Assembly (NCBI RefSeq): GCF_031082295.1
Contig: NZ_JAVHLD010000003.1
Location: 62,001 to 126,000 of the forward strand
Length of the DNA: 64,000 nucleotides
Direction of reading: 5' to 3'
Source of the DNA: Humidesulfovibrio sp.
GTDB taxonomy: Bacteria; Desulfobacterota; Desulfovibrionia; Desulfovibrionales; Desulfovibrionaceae
Part shown: positions 25,642 to 44,972 of the stretch, piece after piece
How positions within the stretch are numbered: position 1 is the first letter of the stretch
Layout of the letters: each line of letters starts with the position of its first letter
Program-made: the position numbers and the translations under genes
Notes under the pieces: model-generated
Told to the model about the DNA's origin: nothing
Seen by the model: the letters and a program-made list of their open reading frames with translations, nothing else
Database searches by the model: none

Positions 25642-25717
25642 CATCATTCCCCCAATGTCGTTGTTTTGCTATTGCTGCCCTGAGTGGCGCAACGTTTCTT
25701 GCTCTCGCTCCACATCC

Positions 25718-27514
25718 TCAGCCCAGGCGCGACAGCTGTTCTCTCAGCACGGCGTCAAAGTGCCGGGCCATGCGCAGCACATGCTCCAGATAGTAGCGCA
25801 TGCCCCAGACCTTCTCGCTCTCCTCGTCCGACCGGAACACAGCCGCGTGGAAGCGCTGGTTGTCGAAGTTCTCGAAGCGCTGCACAAGATAGGTCACGTT
25901 GCCCTGGTCGAACTGGTCCAGGGCTTGGAAGGCTGCGGCCATGAAGTCCGCTCCCTCGCGAGCCAGGATGCCCTCCACCCCAACGCCCACGGACTCCCAC
26001 ACCGCGAGGTCGCGCCGCAGGTGCGCCAGCACGGGCTCGCGCGGACTCTCCGACGCCCGCGCAGCGGCCACGCGGCCCAGCCTGCGACCCAGCCTGCCGG
26101 TGTCCTCCACCGGGCAGTCGGGGATGTACTCCACCCCGGCGCCGCTGATGATGCTCTCCCCGGTGACGCTGGCGCAGGGGATGGCCGAGGCGCGGATCTC
26201 GTCGCGCAGCCAGTGGGCCGCATCCAAGAAATTCAGCGTTGTGTAGCGCGTGCTGCCGTCCAGGGTGGTCACGGGCACCAGCTGCGGCCAGGCGTTGGTG
26301 AGCGGGCGCTGTTCCTCGGATTCGGCTTCGTGGATGCTCCCGCGCGAGTAGCTGAGCTTCCAGGGGTCCGGCGAGCAGAGCTGCGCCCCCACGAACACGC
26401 AGCGCGCGCAGCCCATGTAGCGCGCCAGCGAGAACGCCGTGGTGATGACCGAGCCGTGCAGCCGCAAGTCGGGCCTGCGGCCGAAGAGTTCCGGCAGGTA
26501 GTTGCCGAACAGGTACTTGCGCCCGAACACCGCCCCGCCCAGGTCCGTCAGGCAGTGGCCCACCAGGGACACGTCGGCCAGGTGCTCCAGGCCCTCCCAG
26601 GAACGCCCGGTGTGCACGGAGGTGTCGTTGGCCACCACGAAGTGCGGCCGCACCCCGGCGGCCAGCATGGGCTTGAGCGCGTTGTTCACGGCGATGACGA
26701 GGGCGCGGTCGCGCACAGAGCGCAGGTAGTCCATGCGCCCCGGCAGGTCCGGCCCGGCGGCCACCAGCACGGCGGTCTCGCCCTGGAAGGCCTTGCGCAG
26801 GGGCTGGATGTCCGGCCAGCGCAGGCATTCTGCGGCGTTGACGTAGGAGTGGTGCTGCTGGTCGAAGAACAGGCCGCGCGTCAGGGGCCGGATGGGCATG
26901 CTGAAGACGTTGCCCTGGCCGCTCAGGTGGTACACGCGGTGGCGGTAGAACAGCACCTCCACCAGTTCCACCAGCCGCGCGGCCTCGGCGGTTCCAGCCA
27001 GCTCCGGCAGGCCGTAGAACACCGGGAACCCCAGGCTGAAGAGCTCCGGCGGCAGCAGCTGCGACACCGGCGGCAAAAAGCCGTCCGGCTCGCCCAGCAG
27101 GATGAGCGCGCGCTTGGCCAGCCTGGCCGCGGGCACCCTGGCGGCGAACTGGGCCAGGCGCCGGGCGTCGGGCTCAAGGATCAGCAGGAACGCGTCGGCC
27201 TGCTCCAGGCAGCGGCGGAAGACCGGGGTGTCGGCCGCGCCAAGGAAGACCACCAGCCTGGTCTTGGCCAGCACCTGCTCCACCCCCAGGTCGGGCGGCA
27301 GGATCTCGTAGACTGGCTTCAGGCCCTCGTGGGCAAAGGGATAGACGTAGTACGGGTGCTCAAAGGCCCACAGCGGAGTGTGCGCGTCAAAGGCGTGGTC
27401 CAGGCCCGGTGCCGAGGGGCCGTAGGGCGGCAGTTCGTCTATCTCGCCCGCGCCGGGCGCCTCGAAGAGCACGCCGAGCTCGCGCAGAACGGAAAAGAGG
27501 ACCTTCGTGGTCAT
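25718..27514 (-). CDS. DUF115 / Maf-type glycosyltransferase (flagellin nonulosonate transferase-like)
   Basis: 598 residues. The central DUF115 domain begins near AVLVAAGPDLPGRMDYLR (~250-268) and continues through VIAVNNALKPMLAAGVRPHF and VANDTSVHTG; flanking N- and C-terminal helical regions are as in motility-associated-factor proteins. Characterised Maf proteins attach pseudaminic or legionaminic acid to flagellin in the cytoplasm. That fits the pseF/pseG/NeuB genes of this island and is the main reason to call it a flagellin-glycosylation locus. The start overlaps the upstream radical-SAM stop (ATGA). Confidence 0.82.
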   Translation of the reverse strand: MTTKVLFSVLRELGVLFEAPGAGEIDELPPYGPSAPGLDHAFDAHTPLWAFEHPYYVYPFAHEGLKPVYEILPPDLGVEQVLAKTRLVVFLGAADTPVFRRCLEQADAFLLILEPDARRLAQFAARVPAARLAKRALILLGEPDGFLPPVSQLLPPELFSLGFPVFYGLPELAGTAEAARLVELVEVLFYRHRVYHLSGQGNVFSMPIRPLTRGLFFDQQHHSYVNAAECLRWPDIQPLRKAFQGETAVLVAAGPDLPGRMDYLRSVRDRALVIAVNNALKPMLAAGVRPHFVVANDTSVHTGRSWEGLEHLADVSLVGHCLTDLGGAVFGRKYLFGNYLPELFGRRPDLRLHGSVITTAFSLARYMGCARCVFVGAQLCSPDPWKLSYSRGSIHEAESEEQRPLTNAWPQLVPVTTLDGSTRYTTLNFLDAAHWLRDEIRASAIPCASVTGESIISGAGVEYIPDCPVEDTGRLGRRLGRVAAARASESPREPVLAHLRRDLAVWESVGVGVEGILAREGADFMAAAFQALDQFDQGNVTYLVQRFENFDNQRFHAAVFRSDEESEKVWGMRYYLEHVLRMARHFDAVLREQLSRLG

Positions 27515-29400
27515 TGCCCACCCTGTCGTTCACCCACGACGGCTTCGCCCACTCCGCCGGGGAATATGCTCAGGTACAGGTGCTCCATGGGATCAAGCTG
27601 CATTCGGCTCGCGGCGTTCAAGGCGGGCTCGCGGCATTCGCGCAGCAGCCGGGCCTGGTCTTCGAAAATGCGGGCCATGCGCGGATCGCCGTCCAGTTCA
27701 TAGCACAGGGCGGCCCAGTCGTGCATGTAGGGCGCGGCGGGGCTGAACTTCATAGCCACCCGTATCGTCTCCTTGGCACGGTCCGGATAACCAAGGGCCA
27801 AGTGCAGGCTGGCCAACAGGATGACCACCACCGTGTGCTGGCGGCTGATCTCAAACAACACGTTCAGTCGGTCGAGGGCCTCGTTGAGCCGACCGGCAGC
27901 GCGATGCTCCAGCGCCTGCGCGAAGAGCGACAGCACCTCGGCGTTGTGCTTCACCGGGGGCAGACGCAAGGGGATGTCGTAGCTCCTGCCACAGCTGGAG
28001 CACGGCAGCCGGTGCGCCATGCGGTCGCCATGCATGGCCCGCGACTCCATGTTCGCGAACTCGGTCTCGGCCCCGCAATTGGGGCACTGGCAACGAGCCA
28101 TGGCGGAGCAGTCGGGCTCGACGCCCGCCGCCAGCAGACGCCCGGGCCAGAGCAATCCCTCATGCATCACCCACACGCGCTTGAGCATGTCCATGAACTC
28201 GGCTTCAGGCATGTGGGTCATGTTGATGAGGGGGCAGCCGGCCTTGATGAACCCGATCTTGTTCCGCACGATGCCGCGCCGCACCGATTCATGGAAGATG
28301 TTCGTTCCCGGCCAACAGTCGATCTTGCCGAGGTTCACAAAATATTTGCGGTGCTTCACCCACCAATCGAGGGTTTCCCAGGCGGTCTCCGTGGTTTCCG
28401 CCGGGTCGCCGAAGATGAAGTTGCCGAAGGAGTCCATGCCGCTCTGGAAGGTCAACTCCAAGGCATGCTCGATCTCTGAGGGCTTGAGCTTCTTGTTCAT
28501 GCTCTTCAAGACCACCGGAGACATGCTTTCCAGACCGTAGAACACGGTGCAGCAGCCCGTCTCGCGCATGCGCGCCAAAAGCTCCGCGTCCACCACGGAG
28601 CAGCGCATCTGGGCGTACCAGGTGATCTTCAGGGGCGCCACCTTGTCGCAGAACTCAAGGATGCGCTCCTTGCGCAGGGCGAACACCTCGTCCATAAGGC
28701 CGACGCAGTTCACGCCAAAGCGGTCCATCAGGTACTTGATCTCGCGGATGACATAGTCGATGGAGTGGGCCCGGTGCTTGCCGCGCCCCAGCGCGCTGTA
28801 GCAGAACGTGCAGTGGAACGGGCAGCCGCGGCTGGAGATCATGTCATGCGTGCCCACGTTCTTGTAGCAGATGTCGAAGTTGAAACCCTCGTAGTCGGGG
28901 ATCGGAACCTCATCCAGGTCTTCGATGAAGGGCCGGGGCGCGGTCCGTACGGACTTCCCCTCGGCGTCGCGATAGATGATGCCCTTCACTTGGCCAAGGT
29001 CGCCACCTTGTTCCAGCGTGCGCATGAGGTCCACCGCAGCGGCCTCGCCCTCGCCGACAACGCCGACGTCCGCCCCGATCTGGTAGAACATGTCCGGCTC
29101 GCTGCCCAGAACGCCCCCACCCACCACAGTGGTCACGTTCGGCAGCATTTCCTTGGCCGTCTGGAACATCCAGCTAACGAACTTGAAGGACGGCGTGAGC
29201 GCGCCCACCCCCAGGACATCCGGCCTCTCCTCCGCCAGCACCCGTCTGAAGGCGCCCTGCCAGTCCTTCTCCAGCGCGTTGTTGTGGCAAACCACCTGGA
29301 AGCCGTGCTTCTTGAGCATGGAGGAGACATAGGCGATGCCAACGGGGAAGTAGTAATTGCTGAGCAACGCATAGGGGGGTGCGACGAGAAGGATCTTCAT
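27511..29400 (-). CDS. B12-type radical SAM protein with zinc ribbon and TPR tail
   Basis: 629 residues. Cobalamin-domain-like N-terminus (MKILLVAPPY ... VVGGGVLGSEPD ... VVGEGEAAAVDL) without DxHxxG; Fe-S motif CPFHCTFC (Cys 193, 197, 200); FYGLESMSP and FIFGDPAETTE in the core. Unusually, the C-terminal ~200 residues add a four-cysteine zinc-ribbon-like segment (CPNC ... CSSC, ~435-470) and TPR-like helices (~480-570: ALEHRAAGRLNEALDRL, ALGYPDRAKETI). ATG 29400 gives the canonical opening; the frame upstream to 29790 is not coding. The tail suggests docking to a protein or multienzyme complex. It precedes, and is coupled to, the DUF115 transferase. Confidence 0.86.
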   Translation of the reverse strand: MKILLVAPPYALLSNYYFPVGIAYVSSMLKKHGFQVVCHNNALEKDWQGAFRRVLAEERPDVLGVGALTPSFKFVSWMFQTAKEMLPNVTTVVGGGVLGSEPDMFYQIGADVGVVGEGEAAAVDLMRTLEQGGDLGQVKGIIYRDAEGKSVRTAPRPFIEDLDEVPIPDYEGFNFDICYKNVGTHDMISSRGCPFHCTFCYSALGRGKHRAHSIDYVIREIKYLMDRFGVNCVGLMDEVFALRKERILEFCDKVAPLKITWYAQMRCSVVDAELLARMRETGCCTVFYGLESMSPVVLKSMNKKLKPSEIEHALELTFQSGMDSFGNFIFGDPAETTETAWETLDWWVKHRKYFVNLGKIDCWPGTNIFHESVRRGIVRNKIGFIKAGCPLINMTHMPEAEFMDMLKRVWVMHEGLLWPGRLLAAGVEPDCSAMARCQCPNCGAETEFANMESRAMHGDRMAHRLPCSSCGRSYDIPLRLPPVKHNAEVLSLFAQALEHRAAGRLNEALDRLNVLFEISRQHTVVVILLASLHLALGYPDRAKETIRVAMKFSPAAPYMHDWAALCYELDGDPRMARIFEDQARLLRECREPALNAASRMQLDPMEHLYLSIFPGGVGEAVVGERQGGQ

Positions 29401-29485
29401 GCCTGCTTGTCCTCGCTGATTAATTGTCCAGCCCACCGGCAAAACACCGCTTCCGGGCTCATGGCCGTCCTGTCCCAGCCTCTGC

Positions 29486-30544
29486 CTACCGTCCCGCCAA
29501 AGCCGGAGGCAGCACGATGTGCTCCAGGGGGACCTCGGAAATCTTTTGCGCGACCACGTAGCCCCGCCTGCCCAGTTCCACCAGGCTGGCTTCCAATGGC
29601 TTGAACCCGCTGCTCTCAACCCAGTGGCGCAGGCAGGCCAGGTTGGGCACCCACCAGTTGCTCCACTCCCGTTCATACTCGCCCCGAACGAAATATCCCA
29701 TGGGGATGTCGCGCACACGCTCGATGACGTCCTCACGTCCGGCCCAGTAGGCGTCCACCTGGGGTGCGCCCTCCAGGATCGCGCCCTCAACCAGCAGCAG
29801 GCCGCCTGGGTTCAGCACACGGTTGATGTTGGACAGGGCCAACAGCGGATCCTTCAGGTGGTAGTAGACCCCGAAGAAGGTCACCAGATCAAAGGTACCG
29901 TGTTCCTCCGGGTTCAGGTTGTAGACGTTGGCGCAGATGTGGCCCGCGTCCAGGTTGTTCACCCGGCGCATGGCGTCGAAGCCGGAATGCGTGGCCGGCT
30001 GGATGTCGAAGCCGGTGACGGAGGCGCCGCGGCGCGCCATCTCCAGGGTGTAGGGGCCGTCCCAGGCGCCGATATCCAGAGCGCGCTGGCCTTTCAAATC
30101 CGCCACCAGGGAGTGCCCCAGCAGCCAGGGTTTGTAGGCTACCACGCCGGGAGTCACCACGCCCGGCAATATTTCAAAACGGTGATGCCACCAAGGAACC
30201 GCGCTCAACTCGGCCAGCTGCCCGGCCGTCAGCAGATGAGCGCAGCAGGCGAAGCAGAGGGTGGGCGCAGGCGCGATGCGCTCCGCCGGGATGCCCAGGC
30301 TCAGCGCCTGCTGGCGGATCTCGGCGAAGAAGGCGCTGGCGATAGCGATTTGGTCAAAGTCCGCGCCGGGAGAGAGCGCTGCCGCGGCCTCCGGGCTGAT
30401 GACCGGCTTGCCGTGAAACTGGCTGCCCTGCCGGGCGGAGTTGTTGTCCACGAAGGCCACGACATCGTGCGTGGCGTGGGGGAACTGGGACATGATCATT
30501 CCGGCTTGGCCGCCGGTGCCCCAAATGAGCAAACGCTGCATCAT
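29486..30544 (-). CDS. Rossmann module fused to a class I methyltransferase
   Basis: 352 residues. Residues 1-~95 are a Rossmann-like unit (LLIWGTGGQAGMIM, then VVAFVDNNSARQGS and GKPVISPEAA); residues ~125-330 are a methyltransferase (ALDIGAWDGPYTLEMARRGA, FDIQPATHSGFDA, FFGVYYHLKDPLLAL, SNWWVPNLACLRHW). The methyltransferase half is closely similar to that at 24517, but the accessory module is at the opposite end. Start ATG 30544 overlaps the glycosyltransferase stop (ATGA). Probably modifies a sugar nucleotide or glycan of the island; no direct evidence for substrate. Confidence 0.85.
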   Translation of the reverse strand: MMQRLLIWGTGGQAGMIMSQFPHATHDVVAFVDNNSARQGSQFHGKPVISPEAAAALSPGADFDQIAIASAFFAEIRQQALSLGIPAERIAPAPTLCFACCAHLLTAGQLAELSAVPWWHHRFEILPGVVTPGVVAYKPWLLGHSLVADLKGQRALDIGAWDGPYTLEMARRGASVTGFDIQPATHSGFDAMRRVNNLDAGHICANVYNLNPEEHGTFDLVTFFGVYYHLKDPLLALSNINRVLNPGGLLLVEGAILEGAPQVDAYWAGREDVIERVRDIPMGYFVRGEYEREWSNWWVPNLACLRHWVESSGFKPLEASLVELGRRGYVVAQKISEVPLEHIVLPPALAGR

Positions 30545-31671
30545 TGCTCCTTGCAGTGAACCATGCCCGCCGCCTGGGCCAGCGGATCGGGCAGGATCTT
30601 GAACTTCACGCTCATGGGCGTGTAGCGCTTCATGCGCCACTGCTCCATGACCAAGCGCCAGTAACGCCAGAGCGGTTTCGGGAAGGCCCGGGGGTACGCG
30701 GCCGCGAGGCCGGGCAGCTCGGAAAGCTTCACCAGCCGCAGCAGGAACTTGACCAATCCCGTGCCCATGAAAATTGGATAGAACATGTCGAAGTTGTCCA
30801 GCACGTGCCGGATCATGGTCCAGCGGAACAGGTCGTGGGGCGGGTGCTTGTCCAGGTTGCCCACGCTGTTGATGTTGCCCAGCACCGGGTTGGTGCCGAA
30901 GTTGTTGCCCCCGTGGCGGCGGTAGCAGCCGTGGATGGTGGGGATGAGCAGGCTGTCGCCGATCAAGTGGCAGAAATGCGCGATGTAGTAGTCCGCGCAG
31001 ATGCGGAACGTGGTGCCGTCCAGCGGCATGATGAGCTCCACCGTGCTGCGGCGGAAGACCATGCTGGAGCTGGTGGCCCAGATCCACAGGCCGTTCTGGA
31101 AGCTGGTCTTCTGCACGTGGCGGTAGTGGCCCTTGGACTGGTGGTCCATGTGCTGGCCGCCGATGATCTCGCCGTGCGCGTTGATCTGGTACTGGTTGGA
31201 GCTGGTGAAGGCCACGGTGGCCACGGACAGGTGCGCGCGCATGTGCGCCTCGAGGAAGTCCTCCAGCAGCACGTCATCGGCGTCGAGCATGCACACGAAG
31301 GCGCCCGTGGCGAGCTTCAGCCCGTCGCGGAAGGCTTCCATCTGGCCGCCGTTCTCGGCGCGCTGGATGAGCTGAAAACGCCCGCCGGACTCCGGGCTGT
31401 CCACGAAGGCGCGCACGGCGGCAACGGTGCCGTCGGTGGAAACGTCGTCCACCACGATGCATTCCCAGTTGTCGTAGGTTTGCCGCGTCACCGAGCGCAG
31501 GCACTCCACGATGTACTTCTCGTAGTTGTAGCTGGTGACGATGAAGCTCACCTTGGGCTTCAGCATCCTGGCGCGGTCCAGGCGCTGGTCCAGCAGCGCT
31601 TGCGGCAGGGCCACGGGCTGCTGGTCCGGCGCAGGCTTGGCGCGCCTGGCGATGAGGTCGTGGATGGACAT
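30541..31671 (-). CDS. glycosyltransferase family 2
   Basis: 376 residues. GT-A fold: VSFIVTSYNYEKYIVE (41-56), IVVDDVSTDGT, and the metal-binding MLDADDVLLED (~128-138), followed by an acceptor-side domain with a HMDHQSKG segment and an ADYYIAHF motif. No transmembrane helix, so it probably acts in the cytoplasm, adding a sugar to a growing or protein-bound glycan. GGGAG precedes ATG 31671. Lies between a radical-SAM pair and a methyltransferase in the same leftward operon. Confidence 0.9.
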   Translation of the reverse strand: MSIHDLIARRAKPAPDQQPVALPQALLDQRLDRARMLKPKVSFIVTSYNYEKYIVECLRSVTRQTYDNWECIVVDDVSTDGTVAAVRAFVDSPESGGRFQLIQRAENGGQMEAFRDGLKLATGAFVCMLDADDVLLEDFLEAHMRAHLSVATVAFTSSNQYQINAHGEIIGGQHMDHQSKGHYRHVQKTSFQNGLWIWATSSSMVFRRSTVELIMPLDGTTFRICADYYIAHFCHLIGDSLLIPTIHGCYRRHGGNNFGTNPVLGNINSVGNLDKHPPHDLFRWTMIRHVLDNFDMFYPIFMGTGLVKFLLRLVKLSELPGLAAAYPRAFPKPLWRYWRLVMEQWRMKRYTPMSVKFKILPDPLAQAAGMVHCKEQ

Positions 31672-31694
31672 GCGGGTTCTCCCTGGCTGTACCG

Positions 31695-32900
31695 TTACAG
31701 CGCCCAGGCGGCGTCTTCGGGCTCGACGACCTTGCGCTGCGCGTTGATGTAGTGGCGCGGGTCGACAATCGGACCGGGCACCACGGCGGCCGAGGCGATG
31801 GCCTGGGCCTCATCGGTGCCGAAGAAGGCGGCGTAGTCGCCGTGGAACCCGTCGCAAATCTGACGCATGCCGCAGGCCGCGCAGGCCGGGGTCTCGCGGT
31901 AGCCGCAGTGCTCGCGCGAACGGATGAGCGCGCTGTGGCGGTACTCGTCGTCCACGCTGATGGCGGGGTCGGCAAGGTAGTTTGGCCAGCTCTTGTACAT
32001 GGGCGAGCGGAAGTTGGCCTCGCGCAGGCTGATGAGCGGCGAGAGCCCGCCCTCGCGCATGCGCTGGGGCTTCATGTCCGTGAACGACCAGGAGGCGTAG
32101 TCCCATTCGTGCAGGTCGTAGGGCAGCTGCTGGAAATTGTAGAGGTGCTGGCGGTAGTCTTCCGGCACCTGGCACAGCGGGAAGTAGCGCACGTTGACCT
32201 CGATGTCCGCGCCGCGCAACACGTCCATGGCGGCCAGGAGCGGCGGGGCGACCTCGGAGTAGGCGGCCACGTCGTCCAGCGACCGCTCGCCCTTCTGCTG
32301 GTCCTCGAAGGGGTTGAAGGCGATGAAGTTCACCGCGCGCGCGCCCACGCTGACGGCAAGCCGGGCCACGTCGGCCAGGTGCGGCAGGGAGGACTTGGTG
32401 AGCACGCAGTTGAAGCGCACCGGCATGCCGATGGCCACGCAGTTGTCCAGCGCCTGCATCTGCAGCTTGTGCGCGCCGGGCACGCCCACCACGTCGTCGT
32501 AGTTGGCGCCCAGGCCGTGCACGCTGACGAGCAGGTCGCGCACGCCGGAGTCCTTGAGCCGCTGGCAGGCGTCGCGCTTGGCCAGCACAAGGGCGTTGGT
32601 GATGAGCGTGGGCAGGAGCCCGATCTTGGCGCTGTGGCTGCACAGTTCCTCAATGCCGGGGAAAATTGTCGGCTCGCCGCCCTGGATGTCAATGGCGTTG
32701 TTGCCGTAGTGGTTGCGCAGGATGTCGAAGATGCTCTTGGCCTTGTCGAGGCTCATGAACGGATGCTCGGGGTGGTCCTTGGCCTCGATGCGCGTCTGGA
32801 AATAGCAGAAGCGGCAGCGCAGGTTGCAGGTCTGGCCCAGCCAGATCACGCCCCTCTTGGTCAGCACGCGTCTGGTCGTCTTCTGGATGCTTGTGCTCAT
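31695..32900 (-). CDS. radical SAM protein with C-terminal cysteine cluster (SPASM-like)
   Basis: 401 residues. Fe-S motif CNLRCRFC (Cys 25, 29, 32), then DIQGGEPTIFPGIEEL and LITNALVLAKRD. The C-terminus has CGYRETPACAACGMRQIC, the kind of cluster that binds an auxiliary Fe-S centre in SPASM/twitch enzymes. No cobalamin domain. ATG 32900 overlaps the preceding radical-SAM stop (ATGA). Such enzymes catalyse dehydrogenations, peptide cross-links or sugar oxidations; in a glycan operon a sugar or amino-acid-linked radical step is possible. The substrate is not deducible. Confidence 0.85.
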   Translation of the reverse strand: MSTSIQKTTRRVLTKRGVIWLGQTCNLRCRFCYFQTRIEAKDHPEHPFMSLDKAKSIFDILRNHYGNNAIDIQGGEPTIFPGIEELCSHSAKIGLLPTLITNALVLAKRDACQRLKDSGVRDLLVSVHGLGANYDDVVGVPGAHKLQMQALDNCVAIGMPVRFNCVLTKSSLPHLADVARLAVSVGARAVNFIAFNPFEDQQKGERSLDDVAAYSEVAPPLLAAMDVLRGADIEVNVRYFPLCQVPEDYRQHLYNFQQLPYDLHEWDYASWSFTDMKPQRMREGGLSPLISLREANFRSPMYKSWPNYLADPAISVDDEYRHSALIRSREHCGYRETPACAACGMRQICDGFHGDYAAFFGTDEAQAIASAAVVPGPIVDPRHYINAQRKVVEPEDAAWAL

Positions 32901-33793
32901 TTGGCGCTCCCGGCGCACGCGCCGTTGGTTTCTTCCGCCGCCAGGCGTTCGGCGATCTTCTCGCGATACTCAAGCTCGGTCTCGCGCTCCACTTCGCTCA
33001 TGTACCAGTTGGGGCCGGGGTTCCAGTCCTCGGCCAGGCCGCCGCCGTAGATCTCCACGCGGCCGCGCTGGGCCTTGGGCGAGCGGATGGCCAGGAGGGC
33101 CTCCAGGTTGCCGGGGCTCACGTCGTCGATCTCCTGGGCGCTGGGCCTGCGCTTGAGCGGGATGGCGCAGCCGCACCTCGGGCAGGCGCGCCTCTTCTGC
33201 TCGTCAAAGTCCGCAGGCACGCGCTTCCACCAGCCGGGCTCCACCGGCCAGCCGCCGGGACCGTCGAAAAGCATGTCGAAGCTGGCCGCCACCTCGCAAA
33301 AAAACGCGCCCTTGGGCGTGATGGAGGCCGACCAGTACTTCTGGATCCAGCAGTCGTCGATGAGCCGCCACATCTCGTCCTTGTCGGCCACGACCTCCTC
33401 CGCCGCCACCAGCAGGGGCTGGTGCAGAATCTGGTCGACGCTGTGGTCGTTGAAATAGAAGTTGCCGTACACCTCGCGGATGAGGGTTCCGTACTTTTCG
33501 CCCTGTGCCTTGGGCACCGTGGACCACAGGCCTCGGCGCTTCTTGTCGGTGATCCTCGAAGCGAGGTACTCGGCCATCTCCGCGAACTGCGGGTGCAAGA
33601 GCGGCTCCCCGCCGATCATGCCGACCATGCCGGGGAAGTCGACGAGGGAATCCACCGCGCGGCGGAAGGTCTCCATGTCCATGAAGAACGGCTTGCGGTG
33701 GTGGCCGGTGAAGCGCGTGCAGTTGGAGCAGCGGTTCATGCAGGCGTTGGTCACGTCGATCTGGATGATCTGCATCTCGGACAGGGCAATCAT
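32897..33793 (-). CDS. radical SAM protein with auxiliary cysteine region
   Basis: 298 residues. Fe-S motif CMNRCSNC (Cys 18, 22, 25), followed by GMIGGEPLLHPQF. The second half has CW...SITPKGAFFCEVA and CPRCGC, a layout seen in SPASM-type auxiliary cluster domains (a strand with G-x-x-x-C-E, then a CxxCxC). AGGAGG precedes ATG 33793 at seven bases. Its partner at 31695 is translationally coupled behind it, so the two may act successively or as a complex. Confidence 0.85.
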   Translation of the reverse strand: MIALSEMQIIQIDVTNACMNRCSNCTRFTGHHRKPFFMDMETFRRAVDSLVDFPGMVGMIGGEPLLHPQFAEMAEYLASRITDKKRRGLWSTVPKAQGEKYGTLIREVYGNFYFNDHSVDQILHQPLLVAAEEVVADKDEMWRLIDDCWIQKYWSASITPKGAFFCEVAASFDMLFDGPGGWPVEPGWWKRVPADFDEQKRRACPRCGCAIPLKRRPSAQEIDDVSPGNLEALLAIRSPKAQRGRVEIYGGGLAEDWNPGPNWYMSEVERETELEYREKIAERLAAEETNGACAGSAK

Positions 33794-33811
33794 GAAACAG
33801 CCTCCTGACTG

Positions 33812-33841
33812 CGCCGGGCCTGGATGACGAGCGCCCCGGCG
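33812..33841 (-). promoter_or_regulatory. intercistronic hairpin before a radical-SAM gene
   Basis: CGCCGGG (33812-33818) and CCCGGCG (33835-33841) form a 7-bp stem with a 16-base loop in the only sizeable gap (97 bases) of this part of the operon. Its position ahead of the ribosome site of 33793 suggests mRNA processing or translational effect; no T-tract follows. Confidence 0.3.
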
Positions 33842-33890
33842 ATTTCGACTTTACCGCGATGGCAATGAGATGTCTTTGCAAGTTTGATGC

Positions 33891-35270
33891 TCAAGAGGCT
33901 CTCCACAGACTGGCGTCCACGCCGATCATGTCGAAAACACCGCCGCAGACCGTGAGGTCAAGGCCCAGGGCCGCCATCTCGTCCCTGCGCGCGCTCGCGA
34001 CACGCTCCAGGTCGCGGATGCTGCGGGTGAAGATGCGCTCCCAGTACAGGTCGTGCAGGGGGTTGCGGCGCGGGTCGAAGCCTGGGCCGCGTCTTGGGCG
34101 GGTGAAGCGCACATAGTCGCTCGAATCCGCGTCGATGATCTGTATGCCCCGGGGCCCGACCCTGATGGCCCAATCAAGAAAGAGCGACGCCTCATGGATG
34201 TTCACGGGCGTGGCCAGATACTTCAGGGTCAGCTTCTCCGGCGCGATGGCCGCCACGCGCCGAGAGAAGGCGTGGGCACGTTCGACGTTCAGCCCGGTCA
34301 GCACCTTATACGTCTGCGGGGTGTGCCCGTAAAGGCTGACCACCATGGAATCAAACGCGCAAACGGCCCTGTCGGCCAGCTTCCCAGGCACGTTCCCGTT
34401 GGTGACGAGCGCAAGCGCCGTCTGTGGAGAAGCTTCCCGCAAGGCGGCGCACAGTTCGAAGATGCGCTCCTGAACCAGCAACTCGCCCCCCTGGAGATAA
34501 ATGCTGGCGGGCCGCAGCCGCTTCACCAGGGCGATGATCTCCGGATACAGGGAATAGTCCGGCTGTTTGAACTCCGCCGTGTACTCGGGCGCGTGCACGC
34601 AGCACATGGCGCAACGCGAATTGCAGAACAGCGACAGCTCGATGTTCAGCGTCCTGATGCAAACGGCCTCTCCGGCCACCGCCGGGCGGAATATGGAATT
34701 GAAGCTCCAGGGCTCGCACTGGCAGGTACGTATGTCGAAGTCCTGCAGACGTTGCATGAGGTCCGCATCGCCCAGGTGGCCGATGCGCTTGGCTGGATCG
34801 CTCCAGGTAAGGCAGCCGGGAAACACCTCCCCGGCGTGATTGATGAACATGTCCTCGAAATGGCAAGGGCGCACGCGCTTGCCCGTGGCGCCCCTCATGG
34901 TCTCCAGTGAGGTTTCCGGCTCGTGGTCAAACAGCGTCAGCACCGGACGTCGGCCCAGGTCAAGCGTGTCTTCCAGACGGTTCAACACAGCCGCGTAGTG
35001 CCTGGGGGAAACCGCCAGCACAACGGCGTCACAGTCGACCTCCTGGCCCTTGAACAGGGTGTCGGAGTTCACATAGCCCGTGACCATCGCGCCCAGGGCC
35101 AGACGGACCGCGGCACCCGTGCCTTGGTTGACGCCGTAGAGCAGCACACGCCTAGCGTCCAGGGACTCCAGTTCGCCACGCAAGCTCGCCGCCTGTGGCA
35201 CGCCCAGCACACCGGTTTCCACGACCTGCCGGTACAGCGCATGTTCCCAATCCAGGTGTTTGAGATTCAT
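33891..35270 (-). CDS. radical SAM protein with SPASM-like segment N-terminal to the core
   Basis: 459 residues. Residues ~40-110 look like a Rossmann module (VLLYGVNQGTGAAVRLALG, then AVVLAVSPRHYAAVL). Next comes a cysteine-bearing stretch (Cys 136 in PCHFEDMFINHAGEVFPGC, Cys 153, Cys 183, Cys 185) that resembles a SPASM auxiliary-cluster strand. Only then comes the radical-SAM motif CNSRCAMC (Cys 216, 220, 223), with LQGGELLVQERI as the GGEP-equivalent. In ordinary SPASM proteins the auxiliary domain follows the core; here the order appears reversed. The start overlaps the previous gene's stop (ATGA). Function unknown. Confidence 0.8.
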   Translation of the reverse strand: MNLKHLDWEHALYRQVVETGVLGVPQAASLRGELESLDARRVLLYGVNQGTGAAVRLALGAMVTGYVNSDTLFKGQEVDCDAVVLAVSPRHYAAVLNRLEDTLDLGRRPVLTLFDHEPETSLETMRGATGKRVRPCHFEDMFINHAGEVFPGCLTWSDPAKRIGHLGDADLMQRLQDFDIRTCQCEPWSFNSIFRPAVAGEAVCIRTLNIELSLFCNSRCAMCCVHAPEYTAEFKQPDYSLYPEIIALVKRLRPASIYLQGGELLVQERIFELCAALREASPQTALALVTNGNVPGKLADRAVCAFDSMVVSLYGHTPQTYKVLTGLNVERAHAFSRRVAAIAPEKLTLKYLATPVNIHEASLFLDWAIRVGPRGIQIIDADSSDYVRFTRPRRGPGFDPRRNPLHDLYWERIFTRSIRDLERVASARRDEMAALGLDLTVCGGVFDMIGVDASLWRAS

Positions 35271-37081
35271 GCGCCCTCCTCCGCAGGCGAGGCAAAGCCC
35301 AACCGCGCCAGAACGGCCAGCACCGCGGCATACAGTTCGTCCACGTCAAGTTCATAGTGCCGCACGTGCATCTCCACCGACCAGTCCTCGGCCACGGCGG
35401 ACACCGACAGGTTCAATGCTGGGTTCTCACGCGGGAGCGAGGCCACATTCCCAGGCCCCGCAGGCAGCAGGTAGGCGTCCATGATGTCGCTCCCGCCATG
35501 GAACACGCCCGGCACGTTGGCAATGCCGAGGAACGTCGCTCCGCTGCCCAGGGGCGAAATGTGCAGGGTCACATGCGCGGCCAGGTGGATCGTGTCCGAG
35601 ACACCAAGCCCCAGGGCGTCTAGCCAGGGCAAAGCCGGAGGCAAGGCGGACGTGATCTCCCTCATGCGCTCCCGCTCGTTCTCAAGGCCGTCGAACACCA
35701 CCACCAGATCCGGATACTCCCGGTGCAGCCGCGTCAGCAGGTCGACGAACCCGGCGTTCTGCGAGGTCCAGGCGCGGGTGGAGCGCAGGGTGATCCACAG
35801 GCTCAGCCGGGCCTGGGCGCAGGCCTGGGCCAGTTCCCGGGCACGCTGGCTGGCGCGGCTGGCCGCCAGCGCGAGGACGCGACGGGCCAAGGCCTCCTGA
35901 AAATCCCCACCGTAGTGGAGCATAACTGGCAGCAGGTTTTCCTCAAGGGGCAGCCGGAAAGCCTGGTCGGTGAGGCGCGCCTCGTCCAGTCCGGTCAGGC
36001 GGCGCAGGGGCGGCAGCTCGGGGAACAACGCGGCCATGTCCAACAGGTCGCTCAGGGTCACCAGGGCGCCCTGAAAAACTTCGCCAACGCCAGCGGCCAG
36101 CACGGCCTGGATGCCGGCCAGCTCGTTGCGGATCTGGTGCCCCAGGTTTTTGTAGTTGCCCAGAAGGGCCAGAGGCTTCTTGCCGGGAGCCTGCGGAGCC
36201 GAATAGCGTTCCACCTCTCCCCAGGAGCGCAGGCAGAGGAGCTTGAAGCGCTCGATGAGCCTGGCGAGCTGCGCGGACTCGAAAAACATGTAGCGCATGG
36301 ATTCTTCAAGCGGGCGTGCATTCAGGAACGCCTCGCGCGCGGGCAGATACAGGCCCACCAGGATCGGCAGGGTCTTGAAGAGGTAAAATTCCTCGTGCTC
36401 GGGGCAAACGAAACGGTGCGCGGTGACGAAGTGCAACTCTGGCTGGCGCAACAGAAAAGCCTGGTCCGACACCAGCGCGCGCCCGCAACAGGGGCAGGCA
36501 CACAGGGCCGTGCGGTGCTCCAGCAGTTGGGCCTCAAAGCCAGAAAACACCTCCGCGAACTCCGGCGAAAGGGCCTGCACCTCGGCATTCCGGGCCAGCT
36601 CGCGCACCGGCTCAGGCCAGCCCTGCGCAAAGCTAAGCCGCAGGGCCTCCAGATCCAGTCCCAGCTCCGACATGAAGGCCAAGTCCGCCTCGCCCGGCTC
36701 CGCCAGGTCCGCGAAGCGCAAGGCGCGACGGGCTCCCAGGATGCAGGCGTCGGAGGCCGTGTCCAGCACGTTGATCACACGCGGGGGCGGGGTGCGTTGG
36801 TGGGCCTGGTACAGCAGGTCGGTGGCGGCGGCGTCCACGCCCCAGCACAGGATGACGTCCACGCTGTCCAAAAACTCGTGCACGTCTCCCAGGTACGGCA
36901 GACCCTGCCGGTTCACGTCCGGATCAGGGTGGTGCAGCCCCGCCACGTCGAATCCCGCCAGCAACTCGCCGATATTTCCAGCGAAACGGCCGTAGTCCGC
37001 TGGATACACACCCACCCTGCGCCCCTTCAGATCGGCGGCCAGGGCGTCCAGGCGAAGGCGGATGGCTTTTAGTATCTCCAT
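35267..37081 (-). CDS. large protein of unknown function, possible GT-B-like fold
   Basis: 604 residues; family not recognised. The N-terminal ~110 residues look Rossmann-like (RRVGVYPADYGRFAGNIGEL, VDVILCWGVDAAA, VINVLDTAS). A central CACPCCG followed about 30 residues later by FVCPEHEEF may bind a metal. The C-terminal ~200 residues (SLWITLRSTRAW, YPDLVVVFDGLEN, HISPLGSGATFLGIANVPGVFHG) resemble the nucleotide-sugar side of GT-B glycosyltransferases such as GT9. ATG 37081 is five bases after the methyltransferase stop; the frame upstream to 37525 is shadow. The operon position suggests a glycan-assembly enzyme (inference). Confidence 0.65.
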   Translation of the reverse strand: MEILKAIRLRLDALAADLKGRRVGVYPADYGRFAGNIGELLAGFDVAGLHHPDPDVNRQGLPYLGDVHEFLDSVDVILCWGVDAAATDLLYQAHQRTPPPRVINVLDTASDACILGARRALRFADLAEPGEADLAFMSELGLDLEALRLSFAQGWPEPVRELARNAEVQALSPEFAEVFSGFEAQLLEHRTALCACPCCGRALVSDQAFLLRQPELHFVTAHRFVCPEHEEFYLFKTLPILVGLYLPAREAFLNARPLEESMRYMFFESAQLARLIERFKLLCLRSWGEVERYSAPQAPGKKPLALLGNYKNLGHQIRNELAGIQAVLAAGVGEVFQGALVTLSDLLDMAALFPELPPLRRLTGLDEARLTDQAFRLPLEENLLPVMLHYGGDFQEALARRVLALAASRASQRARELAQACAQARLSLWITLRSTRAWTSQNAGFVDLLTRLHREYPDLVVVFDGLENERERMREITSALPPALPWLDALGLGVSDTIHLAAHVTLHISPLGSGATFLGIANVPGVFHGGSDIMDAYLLPAGPGNVASLPRENPALNLSVSAVAEDWSVEMHVRHYELDVDELYAAVLAVLARLGFASPAEEGA

Positions 37082-37086
37082 GCGCG

Positions 37087-38049
37087 CTACCGGGGTCTCC
37101 AGACCACGGCGGAGTAGCCCTCGATGTACAGGCTGCCCACGTTGGTCCGCTGGGCCTTCAGAATCTCCACCTGGCCCAGAGCCTCGCGCCGCCTGAGCTC
37201 CAGCAGGAAACCGCTCAGGTAGCCGCGCTTCTCGAAATAGCGCAGGCTCAAGTAATCCAGCAGCCGCTCCGGGTCGAGGAGCTCGCCGACGGGCTCTATG
37301 TGCACACACACCGAGGGCCGGTTGTCCTGCAGATAGTCGAGGAAGGGCCGGAAGCCCTCCCCAACCTGCTCCAGCGAAGCCACTGTGTACACCGCCGCGC
37401 CCGGCTCCAGGCGCATGGCTGTGTCCGGCTCGAAGATATTGAAGCGCCTGGCCTCCACCTGGCCCAGCAGCCCGCTCTCCCCGATGGCCGCAACCAGCCT
37501 GTTGGAGGAGCCCGCCCAGTCGCAACCGTAGAGCCTGGCCACTGGGTTCACCCGGCGCACGCGCTCCAGGTTGTGGCCGGTGCCGCAGCCGAACTCATAG
37601 ACCGCTGGCGCTTCTGCCAGCCAGGCGTCGAACAGCCAGTCCTCCAGGGCGGCCAGCATGTTGCGCTCGCAGTCCGGGCTGGCCGGGGCCACCAGTTCGC
37701 CGTTCAGGCGCAGGGCGTCGTACTTGCCGAAGTAGCCTGGCACCAGCGACTGCGCGCAGGGCGTTGCCAGAAAGCGGTCCAGGTTCTCCTGCCAGCCGTT
37801 CTCCCAATCGCCCAGGCGGCGCTCTCCGGCCTTGGACAGCTGGGCTTCCAACAGCGTGGCCGCGATCTTGCGCAGCCAGCCGTCGCGCTCGGCCAGGGGC
37901 ATGCGTCGGCAGCGGATGCCGTAGGCGGCCACGCGCTCGGCCACATGGGCCGGGATCGTTTCGCCGAAGGCCTGGGCGAATTCCGCCGGGCCGCAGTCGA
38001 ACACGCCGGTCACTTCTTTGTCCCCTGTCATTTCTTTGCCGCCACTCAT
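37087..38049 (-). CDS. class I SAM-dependent methyltransferase
   Basis: About 320 residues. A helical N-terminal region (~20-130) precedes the Rossmann core with VYEFGCGTGHNLERV (~154-168), LYGCDWAGSSNRLV and VYTVASLEQVGEGF. ATG 38049 overlaps the stop of the epimerase gene (ATGA), supporting it over the longer frame to 38085. Probably a sugar- or glycan-specific methylase of the island; the downstream gene begins 5 bases after its stop. Confidence 0.8.
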   Translation of the reverse strand: MSGGKEMTGDKEVTGVFDCGPAEFAQAFGETIPAHVAERVAAYGIRCRRMPLAERDGWLRKIAATLLEAQLSKAGERRLGDWENGWQENLDRFLATPCAQSLVPGYFGKYDALRLNGELVAPASPDCERNMLAALEDWLFDAWLAEAPAVYEFGCGTGHNLERVRRVNPVARLYGCDWAGSSNRLVAAIGESGLLGQVEARRFNIFEPDTAMRLEPGAAVYTVASLEQVGEGFRPFLDYLQDNRPSVCVHIEPVGELLDPERLLDYLSLRYFEKRGYLSGFLLELRRREALGQVEILKAQRTNVGSLYIEGYSAVVWRPR

Positions 38050-38972
38050 GCTCCGCGCACCTTCGGGTAATTCGACAAAAACCACTCCACGGTCTGCTCC
38101 AGTCCCTGGCGCAGGGGGGTAAACTCAAAATCCGGCAGGTAGCGCTTGAGCTTGGCCGTGTCCGAGGGCTTGCGCAGCTGGCCGTCGGGCTTGGTGGTGT
38201 CAAAAATCAGGCGACCCTTGAACTCCATCACGTCCGCGAGGGTTTCAGCCAGCTCCATGATGCTGACCTCGATGCCGCTAGACAGGATGATGGGCTGGTC
38301 CTCGTTGTAGTTGTCGAGCAGCCACAGCGTGAGCCGGGCCACGTCGTCGGAGAGGATGAACTCCCGCAGGGGCTTGCCGCTGCCCCAGAGCACCAGGTCC
38401 TCGCCACGCTGCTTGGCCAGGTGGCAGCGGTGGATGAGAGAGGGGATGACATGGCCGTCGGTGAGGCTGAAGTTGTCGTTGGGGCCGTAAATGTTGGTGG
38501 GAATGGCCACGATGTAGTTGCAGTTCCACTCGTTGCGGTAGGCGGCGCTTTGCACCTCAAGCATGCGCTTGGCGTAGGCGTAGCCGAAGTTGCTGGGGTG
38601 CGGCGGGCCGTTGTGCAGATGGGCCTCGTTCAGCGGATACTGGCAACGGTCTGGGAACACGCAGGTGGACATGAAGGAGATGAGTTTCTCCACACCGGCT
38701 AGGCGCGCGGCCTCCAGCACGTTCAAATTCATCATGATGTTGTTGCGGAAGTATTCGCCCGAATGGATCATGTTTCCGCCCAGGCCGCCCACCACCGCTG
38801 CCAGGTGAATGACGCGCCGGGGCTTGAGCAGGGAGAACATGGTGCTGGTGGACCCAAACTCCGTCAGGTCCGCGTGCTCGCGGGTGACAAACTCCGTGTC
38901 CGAGAGGTTCCGCTGCCGCAGGGCATGTCCCACCAGACCGGCGGCGCCGGTGACGAGCAGGTCTGTCTTCAT
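38046..38972 (-). CDS. NAD(P)-dependent sugar epimerase, GDP-L-fucose synthase family
   Basis: 308 residues. SDR-extended fold with GAAGLVGHAL near the N-terminus, FMSTCVFPD (catalytic Ser plus the Cys typical of GDP-fucose synthase), and the YAYAK active-site Tyr/Lys. HLHNGPPHPSN and TNIYGPNDNFSL also match that family. It would perform a C3,C5-epimerisation/C4-reduction of a 4-keto-sugar nucleotide. No GDP-mannose 4,6-dehydratase is in the window, so the substrate may be another 4-keto-deoxy sugar made with the dehydratase-like enzyme at 38969. The start overlaps that gene (ATGA). Confidence 0.88.
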   Translation of the reverse strand: MKTDLLVTGAAGLVGHALRQRNLSDTEFVTREHADLTEFGSTSTMFSLLKPRRVIHLAAVVGGLGGNMIHSGEYFRNNIMMNLNVLEAARLAGVEKLISFMSTCVFPDRCQYPLNEAHLHNGPPHPSNFGYAYAKRMLEVQSAAYRNEWNCNYIVAIPTNIYGPNDNFSLTDGHVIPSLIHRCHLAKQRGEDLVLWGSGKPLREFILSDDVARLTLWLLDNYNEDQPIILSSGIEVSIMELAETLADVMEFKGRLIFDTTKPDGQLRKPSDTAKLKRYLPDFEFTPLRQGLEQTVEWFLSNYPKVRGA

Positions 38973-40018
38973 GCGTCTCCCTTCTCCGCAGCCGTGAGCA
39001 TGCGAAGCCATTCGATGGTGCGCTCAAGCCCCGCAGCGAGCGGGACGAAATCCGTCTTGCCGAAATCCTGGCGCAGCCGCGCAAGGCTTAAGCTGACCTC
39101 GCCGGGGGAGCCCGTGAGCGTGGCCTCGGTCTGCGGGAAGATGACGGGCGCGCCGGTGAGCTGCCCGATGCTTCTCGCCAGGTCAGCAATGGTGGTGCGC
39201 GAAATGCCGCCCACATTGTACACCACCTGCTCCCCGTCCAGCAGGATGCGCCAGAGGATTTCGATGGTGTCCGCGACGTAGCAGTAAGTCCGCAGGGCGT
39301 GGCCGTGGTCGGCCAGGGTCACGGAGCCGGAAAGTCCGCGCAGGATGAAGGTGTTGAGCACCCGGGCGTCGTCCAGGCGCACCCCCGGCCCGTAGGCCAG
39401 GGCCACGCGGGCTGCGCGGGCGCGCTTGCCCGAGGCCGAGGCGGCGTGGCAGATGACCTCGCCCGCGCGCTTGGCGTCGATGTAGCTGGCCCGGGGATGG
39501 TCCGTGTTGGTGGTGCCGATCTGGGTCTCCACGTGCTCTCCGGGCGGCAGGCCGGAGTAGACCTCCGAGGTGCTGAGATAGAGGAACCCCCCGCCGGGCG
39601 CCAGGCGAGAGAGCAGGTCCAGGCTGGCACACACGTTGAGCGCCATGGTGCCCAAGGGGTCGGCCAAAAATTTTCCAGGCTGGCCGTAGCCCGCGGCGTG
39701 GACGACATGGTCGGCCGCAGGCAGTATGCGGCGGAAGTCTGCGTCCCCCAGGTCGCCAGAGAGAATGCGCGCGCCCTTGCGTTCTGCCAGGAGCGCGAAA
39801 TATCCCGTCGGTCGGCTACGCGTAACAACCGTCACTTCCGCCGGGCGCGTCGCCGGGTCTTCTGGCAGGCTGGCCAAAAGCCACTGGCCGATGAGCCCGC
39901 TGGCCCCGGTCAAGAGCACCCTCTTGCCCGCCAGGCGCGCAAGCCCCACCCGAACGCCCACGGGCAGGGCGCCGTCCAGGATGCACCGGGCCAGCCGCTC
40001 CGACGTGTCACTGCGCAT
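38969..40018 (-). CDS. NAD-dependent epimerase/dehydratase family protein
   Basis: 349 residues. Extended SDR with VLLTGASGLIGQWL (~33-46), the active site STSEVYSG (Ser/Thr) and YIDAKRAGE (Tyr/Lys), and NVGGISRTTI in the C-terminal substrate domain. It most resembles UDP-glucuronate decarboxylase or dTDP-glucose 4,6-dehydratase relatives. It overlaps the transketolase gene upstream by 11 bases and the GDP-fucose-synthase-like gene downstream by 4. The pair plausibly makes a deoxy- or keto-sugar nucleotide for the glycan. Confidence 0.85.
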   Translation of the reverse strand: MRSDTSERLARCILDGALPVGVRVGLARLAGKRVLLTGASGLIGQWLLASLPEDPATRPAEVTVVTRSRPTGYFALLAERKGARILSGDLGDADFRRILPAADHVVHAAGYGQPGKFLADPLGTMALNVCASLDLLSRLAPGGGFLYLSTSEVYSGLPPGEHVETQIGTTNTDHPRASYIDAKRAGEVICHAASASGKRARAARVALAYGPGVRLDDARVLNTFILRGLSGSVTLADHGHALRTYCYVADTIEILWRILLDGEQVVYNVGGISRTTIADLARSIGQLTGAPVIFPQTEATLTGSPGEVSLSLARLRQDFGKTDFVPLAAGLERTIEWLRMLTAAEKGDA

Positions 40019-40898
40019 GGATGAGCCTCACGAGACGCTGCCTGATGCCGTCGGCGTCAAGACCCAGGATCGCGTCATGCTCCCGGGCCTTGCCGTAATT
40101 GCGCGAAAAATCCGTATCCTGCCCGGCGAAGTCAACCAGCACGGGCCTGGGGTACAGAGCCTTCAGGATGTCCGGCGCCAGGGCCCCGCCGAAGTAGGGC
40201 TCGCAGAGCAGCACCTTGCCCGAGGGGCAGTTGGCCGCCAGGGTCGCGGCGTCGAAGGGCACCACCGTGGTGGCATAGAGCAGGGTCACGTCCTGGCCCT
40301 CGCAGGCGGCCAGGGCGGGTTCGAGCATGGGGCCAAGGGCCAGAACCGTGGCCTTGCCGCCGCGGCGCAGCACAAGCATCCGCCCGAACTCCACGGGCTG
40401 TGTGGCGCCATTGCCCGTCTCGCTCAGGCGAAAATAGGTGGGGTGGCCGTTGGCGTAGGCCTGACGGAACAGGCTGGCGAACTCCTCGCCGCAGCCCGGC
40501 AGCACGATCTCCATGCCGGGCAGGTTCTTGAGCGCGCCCACGTCGCCGGGGCAATGGTGCGTGCAGCCGAGCGCCGCGTAGTCGTGCGAGGCGCCCACGC
40601 TGACGAAGTTGCCGCCCAGGCCCTGGTAGCAGAAGTCGATCTTGAGCTGCTCGAAGGCGCGCTCCACGATGAACGGCGCGATGCTGTGCACCACCGGGAC
40701 GAGCCCTGCGGCTGACATGCCCGCGGCTACGCCCATGGTGGCCTGCTCCAGAATGCCAATGTTCAGCACCCGGCCCGGATGATCGGCGAAGCCCTGGCGG
40801 AAGCCCCAGACCCCGATGTCGCAGAGCAGCACGGCCAGGCGCTCGTCCTCGGCCAACAGTTCCAGCACGGTCCCGGCAAAGGCCTGGCGCATGTTCAT
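40008..40898 (-). CDS. transketolase-like protein, C-terminal half
   Basis: 296 residues. Equivalent to the pyrimidine-binding and C-terminal domains of transketolase: NIGILEQATMGVAAGMSAAG (with the glutamate that activates thiamine diphosphate) and VGASHDYAALGCTHHCPGDV. It pairs with the N-terminal half encoded just upstream (ATGA overlap). Split transketolases are found in many sugar clusters and can transfer two-carbon units to unusual aldose or keto-sugar acceptors. The frame to 41378 is antisense-type shadow; ATG 40898 is used because of coupling. Confidence 0.88.
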   Translation of the reverse strand: MNMRQAFAGTVLELLAEDERLAVLLCDIGVWGFRQGFADHPGRVLNIGILEQATMGVAAGMSAAGLVPVVHSIAPFIVERAFEQLKIDFCYQGLGGNFVSVGASHDYAALGCTHHCPGDVGALKNLPGMEIVLPGCGEEFASLFRQAYANGHPTYFRLSETGNGATQPVEFGRMLVLRRGGKATVLALGPMLEPALAACEGQDVTLLYATTVVPFDAATLAANCPSGKVLLCEPYFGGALAPDILKALYPRPVLVDFAGQDTDFSRNYGKAREHDAILGLDADGIRQRLVRLIHAQ

Positions 40899-41668
40899 GC
40901 CAACTCCTGAAGCATGGCGCAAAGCTCCTGTTCCTTGGGGGCGCGGTGGTGCCAGGCGGGGTTGTTCTCCATGTCGCTGCAGCCCCGGCCCTTGACGGTC
41001 TGGGCCAGCAGGGCCAGGGGCCAGTCGCCGGGCTCCTGGCTCAAGGCCTCGCGCAGGGCCTGGTGGTCGTGGCCGTCCACGCACTGCGCGTTGAAGCCAA
41101 AGGCCGCGAACTTGCCCGGCAGGTCGCCAAGATCCAGCGCCCGGTCCGTGGAATGGTTCACATCCACGATGACGCAAAGGTTGGTGAGCCTGTGGTGCGC
41201 GGCCAGCAGCAAGGCCTCCCATACCGAGCCCTCGTTGGCCTCGCCGTCGCCGATGAGCGCGAACACGCGCCCGGGCATCCCGCGCAGGCGCAGGCCCAGG
41301 GCCAGCCCAACGGCCATGGGCAGGCCGTGGCCCAGGGACCCGGCGGAACACTCCACCCCGGGCACCTTGAGGCGGCATGGATGCCCGCCCAGCATGGCCC
41401 CAAAGGAGCCGAAGCGCTCAAGCTCGGCCTCCGGAAAATAGCCCTGCCTTGCCAGCACGGCGTACAGCGCCAGGGAGGCGTGGCCCTTGCTCAAGACGAA
41501 GCGGTCGCGCTCCTCCCAGCCGGGGTTGGCGGGGTCGTGACGCAGCACCTGGCTGTAGAGCACCCACAGGATGTCCAGCACGGAGAAGGCGCTGGGCACA
41601 TGGCCCTCGCCAGCGTTTGCGGCTGCCCGAAGGATGGCGCGCTTCATATGGCGGATCACTTCAGGCAT
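40895..41668 (-). CDS. transketolase-like protein, N-terminal half
   Basis: 257 residues, the thiamine-diphosphate PP-binding domain: SKGHASLALYAVLA, GSLGHGLPMAVGLALG and the GDGEANEGSVWEA ... N motif that binds the Mg-diphosphate. It forms a two-subunit enzyme with the next gene. In an operon with epimerase, fucose-synthase-like and methyltransferase genes, formation of a branched or chain-extended sugar is more likely than the pentose phosphate pathway (inference). Confidence 0.9.
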   Translation of the reverse strand: MPEVIRHMKRAILRAAANAGEGHVPSAFSVLDILWVLYSQVLRHDPANPGWEERDRFVLSKGHASLALYAVLARQGYFPEAELERFGSFGAMLGGHPCRLKVPGVECSAGSLGHGLPMAVGLALGLRLRGMPGRVFALIGDGEANEGSVWEALLLAAHHRLTNLCVIVDVNHSTDRALDLGDLPGKFAAFGFNAQCVDGHDHQALREALSQEPGDWPLALLAQTVKGRGCSDMENNPAWHHRAPKEQELCAMLQELA

Positions 41669-41721
41669 GGCAAGTCCTTCCGCATGGGAGTGCGCTATTC
41701 AAGTGGGCTGGCGGCACGGGG

Positions 41722-44277: not shown

Positions 44278-44972
44278 ACGGCTCCAAAATCGAAGAGTCC
44301 GCAACCCACTATCATTTGGGCCAGCCGCAAGTCTTCATGGGTATCAATGTCAATGAGCATCACAGGATCGTCGAGGTAGTGGACGTAGGTGCCACGGTAC
44401 GCTGGGGTCAGCCTATCCCCGGTGAGCACGCCGTAGGGCCGGCAGGTGCGGCTGCAGGGAAGCTGCTGCGTGGACACGGCATGGGTCAGGCCTGTCACCG
44501 CGTCAAGCACCCGGTAGCCCCGCTGCGTGGCTGGAATAGCGCGGGCCGTGATGATGTGCTGGTACCCCTCGAACAACTTGCCGATCATGAAGTCCACTAA
44601 CCTGGGGTTGCGAAACGGCGATGTGGGCGAGAGGTGCACGACGCCCTGGGGCATGTAGCCGCTCTCCGCCAGGCGCGCCTTGGTGTACTTCAGGCTGTCA
44701 CCCAGGTCAGAGTGATCCTGGGCCAATTCCGCAGGGCGCAGGAAAGGGACCTCGGCCCCATAGGCGCGCGCGACCTCGGCGATCTCCTCATCCTCGGTGG
44801 AGACCACGATCCTTGTGATGTGGCGGCTTTTGAGCGCGACCTCGATGCTGTAGGCGATGAGCGGTTTGCCGCCGAGCAGGGTGATGTTCTTGCGCAAGAT
44901 GCCCTTGGAGCCGCCGCGGGCAGGGATTACGGCCAAGATGTCATGCATTCCGTGAGGAATGTGCGGCTCCAT
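44274..44972 (-). CDS. CMP-acylneuraminate-type cytidylyltransferase
   Basis: 232 residues. NeuA/PseF-like fold: VIPARGGSKGILRKNI (CTP loop; relatives usually have G-I-P-R-K-N), GKPLIAYSI, VVSTEDEEIAEVA, FLRPAELAQDHS, LSPTSPFRNPRLVD, and IDIDTHEDLRLA (second metal-binding aspartates). It would activate an acidic 9-carbon sugar, or a related acid, as its CMP derivative. It is distinct from pseF at 46084, so the island may activate two different sugars. AGGAGG six bases before ATG 44972 fixes the start; the frame continues to 44990. Confidence 0.85.
   Translation of the reverse strand: MEPHIPHGMHDILAVIPARGGSKGILRKNITLLGGKPLIAYSIEVALKSRHITRIVVSTEDEEIAEVARAYGAEVPFLRPAELAQDHSDLGDSLKYTKARLAESGYMPQGVVHLSPTSPFRNPRLVDFMIGKLFEGYQHIITARAIPATQRGYRVLDAVTGLTHAVSTQQLPCSRTCRPYGVLTGDRLTPAYRGTYVHYLDDPVMLIDIDTHEDLRLAQMIVGCGLFDFGAV

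Follow-up and report, generated by a model that had tools for sequence, protein, structure and literature searches.

A passage of PMC9012708 describes the SPASM and twitch domains of radical SAM enzymes as 'C-terminal extensions', presents the auxiliary cluster of BtrN as a proposed electron acceptor, direct evidence being lacking there, and gives MoaA a cluster bound by three cysteines in which one iron is open. EpeE (YydG, PDB 8ai1) and CteB (5wgg) differ from the family described here in carrying such a segment late in the chain, and they act on peptide substrates; the profile of this family matches EpeE mainly in the core and CteB in the SPASM segment. In lipoyl synthase, an auxiliary cluster domain lies N-terminal of the core. 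The same placement is described for GDGT-MAS/Tes in an extract of PMC9433317, although Tes, according to that extract, bears a further cluster domain at its C-terminus as well as a rubredoxin domain. The resemblance shown between these enzymes and the family is one of domain order. A curated precedent does exist in NCBIfam model NF033640 (N_Twi_rSAM, twitch domain-containing radical SAM protein), whose twitch-like part, as placed by profile matches, likewise precedes the core. Among open-licence PMC papers we found no use of 'N-terminal SPASM' or related N-terminal phrasing with radical SAM, and no mention of circular permutation together with radical SAM and SPASM.

The window, the 64,000-nucleotide stretch of Humidesulfovibrio sp. 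DNA analysed here, contains an open reading frame predicted to encode a 459-aa radical SAM protein with an N-terminal twitch segment (33891..35270, minus strand, as are its parts and the three adjoining genes given below). The start of this frame is well supported: its ATG overlaps the stop codon of the upstream gene as ATGA, and AGGAGG lies 4 bases 5' of it. The upstream gene (35267..37015) encodes 582 aa when read from an internal ATG and has no Pfam family. Residues 1-124 have GC contents of 0.73/0.40/0.77 at the three codon positions, and residues 125-459 of 0.62/0.47/0.83; with these coding-like values, the N-terminal part reads as coding. Directly downstream are two further predicted radical SAM genes, encoding proteins of 298 aa (32897..33793; PF04055, 31.5 bits) and 407 aa (31695..32918; PF04055, 67.7 bits), so that three radical SAM genes stand in a row, the latter two at 31695-33793. 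The 298-aa neighbour contains a CPRCGC stretch, noticed by eye.

The initial annotation placed Cys136, Cys153, Cys183 and Cys185 ahead of a radical SAM motif at Cys216, Cys220 and Cys223, the reverse of ordinary SPASM enzymes, and made the idea depend on SPASM similarity of the segment and on conservation of these cysteines among orthologues. The residues are where it put them, in the order it gave, and in an alignment of 16 sequences from 15 genomes (L025 and L040 being two copies in one genome) all seven cysteines are invariant. They lie at 34863..34865 (Cys136), 34812..34814 (Cys153), 34716..34724 (Cys183-x-Cys185) and 34602..34625 (the CX3CX2C motif). Gly147, Pro151, GGE at 261-263 and other residues are invariant as well, and Cys204 (1/16) and Cys442 (2/16) are not kept. 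The SPASM/twitch motif is CX9-15GX4C. Its GX4C position, the usual ligand position, corresponds to residue 152, which is cysteine in 15 of the 16 family members and glycine (GGC, 34815..34817) followed by Cys153 in the window protein alone, a difference that the initial annotation does not mention.

The segment spans residues 131-205 (34656..34880), as delimited by matches of PF13186 (Pfam SPASM) in orthologues and by a segment-only profile, and so it precedes the core, which begins at residue 211 by Pfam match; the C-terminal position expected of SPASM/twitch is not what we observed. At E<=1, PF13186 finds every one of 13 family members except the window protein, which has no Pfam SPASM match; the best E is 5.2e-8. 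In all seven members with listed match positions (six scanned singly and L040), PF13186 lies N-terminal of PF04055; five of these (L018, L020, L021, L022 and L040) exceed the Pfam cut-off and two (L017, L028) fall below it. When run on 1075 open frames, with 1075 reversed decoys as control, the segment profile recovered all 14 family genes present among them. The next matches were L003 (E 6.3e-4), L009 (7.7e-4) and L011 (1.4e-3), and the best of the 1075 decoys reached E 0.44. The segment match lies C-terminal of the radical SAM core match in L003 and L009; in L011, a protein of 333 residues, it covers 223-259, and the core cysteines are near residue 45. In addition, residues 354-395 of CteB match positions 20-61 of the family profile, and the N-terminal segment of L040 (residues 14-57) is matched by positions 252-295 of the 330-position PapB model. 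On these comparisons, the segment is shown to be homologous to SPASM/twitch segments that are located C-terminal of the core elsewhere.

The similarity is of the twitch type. The segment has four conserved cysteines, or five with Cys152. A full two-cluster SPASM motif has a CX2CX5CX3C block, and this block is absent from the family alignments, which have only CxC in the later part of the segment. With one cluster's worth of cysteines, the segment is predicted to be a twitch and not a full SPASM domain. The initial annotation was right about the similarity, which holds in the family by PF13186 and the segment profile.

Membership of the radical SAM superfamily is predicted from the CX3CX2C motif, present in 16/16 sequences, and from PF04055, the sole Pfam family over its cut-off in the window protein (residues 211-342, 30.2 bits against a cut-off of 29.5). 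Across the family, PF04055 is matched at E<=1 by 12 of 13 members, two of which (L022 and L028) stay under the cut-off. We assigned the core to residues 206-459 (33894..34655) from PF04055 and from structure matches. An AF2 model built from 13 sequences had a mean pLDDT of 67. Ten-residue blocks from 131 to 180 scored 75-91 and the block 181-190, which holds Cys183 and Cys185, scored 56; core blocks were mostly above 80, with residues 217-219 and 223-232 below 50, and nearly all of residues 1-126 fell below 50. VIA-align returned radical SAM structures at Z 11.2-13.7 among the 50 rows shown, including PFL activase, MoaA, BlsE and CteB. The longest PDB hits of the core come from the barrels of a wide range of radical SAM families at nearly equal Z, and so they name no function. 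The matches to this model confirm the predicted core and do not bear on the putative cluster site.

The residues ahead of the segment (1-130; 34881..35270), where the initial annotation saw a Rossmann unit, form a putative domain that looks Rossmann-like by eye, from its sequence pattern alone. It has no Pfam family over cut-off, a model of residues 1-133 alone had a mean pLDDT of 55, and Foldseek with this low-confidence model gave no match at E<=0.001. The window protein has 135 residues before Cys136 as compared to 5-81 in the other 15 sequences, and is the only one of the 16 with an N-terminal part of such length; these lengths vary with the start that is taken, and in L018 and L024 the open frame extends 84 and 133 residues upstream. 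A search of 59 related genomes yielded no credible relative of the domain. The sole hit besides the protein itself was L045 (residues 19-66, E 0.002). Its 704-aa frame resembles, by eye, an aldehyde ferredoxin oxidoreductase, and we treated the hit as a chance match. The upstream protein matched the domain at best with E 1.3. A paralogue in the Lentisphaerae genome G732 (L040, 762-2120, 453 aa) has instead an extra C-terminal domain (PglD_N at E 0.016, below cut-off); its extra domain is thus C-terminal where that of the window protein is N-terminal. The two domains gave no alignment, and the neighbouring methyltransferase at 29489-30526 matched the C-terminal domain of L040 at best with E 4.0. 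The N-terminal 130 residues of the window protein may be an added domain, possibly one that binds substrate.

The family is small and scattered over several phyla. At E<=1e-12, relatives were found in 3 of 348 genomes of the organism's own order, and in 2 of 395 genomes in the phylum sample, the window's own genome being included in both counts. A pattern scan of 84,980 species genomes, which gives a lower bound only, found at least 11 loci, two of them already known, in Spirochaetes, Pseudodesulfovibrio (L028 is from Pseudodesulfovibrio pelocollis), Geotalea, a deltaproteobacterial MAG, Thiodictyon, Lentisphaerae and Omnitrophota. At E<=1e-30, 6 of 296 genomes in the phylum of the spirochaete G728 had a relative, four of them already known, and in the phylum of G732 it was 1 of 240, likewise already known. 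G732 has a second copy of the gene. Repeat finds, such as L016/L019, L005/L015/L028, L018/L029, L021/L030, L024/L031 and L022/L032, were counted once. Plasmid and phage collections held no relative at E<=1e-5, and none of 57 pattern matches in viral contigs encodes one. No curated Pfam or NCBIfam model over its cut-off names this family. The permuted architecture proposed in the initial annotation is, by these comparisons, real and conserved, yet the same order is already catalogued in NCBIfam.

The gene lies in a region (24517..55993, no single strand) with GT2, epimerase, CTP_transf_3, NeuB, methyltransferase, B12-binding radical SAM and transketolase-half genes, in which several open reading frames have no Pfam family. 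This looks like a nonulosonate-type surface-glycan region. Two B12-binding radical SAM proteins are encoded within it (27511-29490 and 48704-50116), and at 40008-41668 transketolase N-terminal and pyrimidine-binding parts occupy two adjacent frames, a TPP enzyme in two pieces with sugar genes around it. Homologues of glycosyltransferases, epimerases or cytidylyltransferases (CTP_transf_3) occur at 8 of the 13 loci compared (the window, L020, L022, L023, L025, L026, L042 and L043). Outside the window, Pfam labels were taken for 10 neighbours in all, from L020, L021, L022, L023 and L042, the others being grouped by BLAST. The spirochaete loci L018, L021, L024 and L027 have instead AMP-ligase, ACT and POR-type oxidoreductase genes as common neighbours, the labels for which were taken for L021 only, and flank lengths differ between loci. 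Apart from the family itself, none of the 25 neighbour groups listed includes L041. With glycan genes near 8 of the 13 loci, a sugar-modifying role is a guess, and because of the spirochaete loci and L041 it may not hold for the family as a whole.

We propose that the protein is a radical SAM enzyme with a one-cluster twitch module placed before the catalytic barrel, and that it uses an auxiliary cluster in sugar chemistry; we put the probability of this reading at about 0.55. Within it, the order of modules, the homology to SPASM/twitch and the conservation of four plus three cysteines are shown at the level of sequence. Cys216, Cys220 and Cys223 would bind the [4Fe-4S] cluster that cleaves SAM, and Cys136, Cys153 (or Cys152 in relatives), Cys183 and Cys185 would bind a single auxiliary [4Fe-4S] cluster packed on the barrel, in the way that BtrN or MoaA packs its C-terminal twitch. 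The 5'-deoxyadenosyl radical would then abstract hydrogen from a carbon of a sugar or sugar nucleotide. The auxiliary cluster could either accept an electron, giving an oxidation as proposed for BtrN, or adjoin a cysteine that returns hydrogen, giving an epimerisation. With glycine at position 152, the window protein may use Cys153 as the ligand or may have a cluster bound by three cysteines, one iron being open as in MoaA.

The strongest alternative is that the family shares its lineage with NF033640, a single permutation having given rise to both, which would make it a divergent branch within a subfamily already catalogued. We regard this as a serious possibility, though with the odds against it. 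The twitch-like part of NF033640 corresponds to about positions 1-77 of the profile and precedes the core in five members over the cut-off, from two genomes (G810 and G845). Four G018 proteins match, below the cut-off, positions within 2-77 C-terminal of the core positions. A profile alignment of the family with the five N_Twi members runs collinearly from twitch to core for 299 columns (E 4.8e-11, probability 97). NF033640 also matches 10 of 13 family members at E<=0.1 (best 1e-8), although HxsC (13) and W_rSAM_matur (12) match as many or more. By score the window protein is not a member: its 17 bits fall far short of the 170-bit cut-off, and 34.7 bits is the most reached by the 3 of 8 relatives that have a match at E<=1e-5. 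The twitch part aligned alone is weak (probability 47), N_Twi segments score E 0.28-2.9 with the segment profile, about the decoy level of 0.44, and N_Twi proteins have CxxC and a longer linker to the core where the family has CxC and a shorter one. We built a 31-row core tree in which the 13 rows taken as ordinary were chosen by hand, L004 was dropped as its frame has no CX3CX2C match, several end branches are long, and N_Twi is represented by just five sequences from two genomes. The 14 family rows formed one group (100/99), as did the five N_Twi rows. In the best tree the family stands beside the ordinary rows L003, L009 and L017_2541 (86/81) with N_Twi elsewhere; holding the family and N_Twi as a joint clade was not rejected (p-AU 0.24). 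Among the NF033640 genes, four are neighbours in G810, and one of the G810 frames (L037) starts with what appears by eye to be a polysaccharide-exporter ABC ATPase. In L034 and L038, of the same G810 and G845 set (L033-L039), roughly 170 extra residues lie between the cysteine motif and GGE.

Core and segment of L003, from the organism's own genome, and of L009, from G018, both match the family profiles, and their cores are among the nearest in the tree; their segment follows the core, whereas in the family it precedes it. A bolder form of our proposal is that the family is an independently arisen second lineage with twitch before core, which would show that module order is free and which acts on surface sugars, the window member having lost the usual ligand cysteine and thus using Cys153 or an open iron site. 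Taken as a whole this is tentative, and unlikely to hold in every part.

It is rather improbable that the enzyme is an EpeE-like epimerase with the invariant second cysteine of the P-C-C pair as its hydrogen-atom donor. EpeE is the best PDB profile match (whole-sequence E 1.1e-8; core stretch i-Evalue 3e-6), TIGR04078 has matches at E<=0.1 in 10 of the 13 members, Cys153 is kept in 16/16 sequences with the adjoining Cys152 in 15/16, and an extract of PMC8326336 gives Cys223 of EpeE as the proposed hydrogen donor. Against this, the PCC stretch alone has an i-Evalue of 20, equating its second cysteine with Cys223 of EpeE assumes a 25-residue tag offset, PCC pairs are present in other SPASM-type segments too, and there is no known epimerase substrate here. 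That the segment is a chance cluster of cysteines or a misjoined reading frame, as the missing Pfam SPASM match in the window protein might suggest, is refuted to the point of being hardly conceivable by the 16/16 conservation, by the PF13186 matches in 12 of the 13 members, by codon statistics that stay coding-like across the joint and by the reversed decoys.

A radical SAM protein with its twitch module before the barrel, as proposed here, has two consequences. A conserved family in the reverse order would escape rules that search only C-terminal of the core. It also provides a natural test of whether the placement of the auxiliary cluster depends on chain order.
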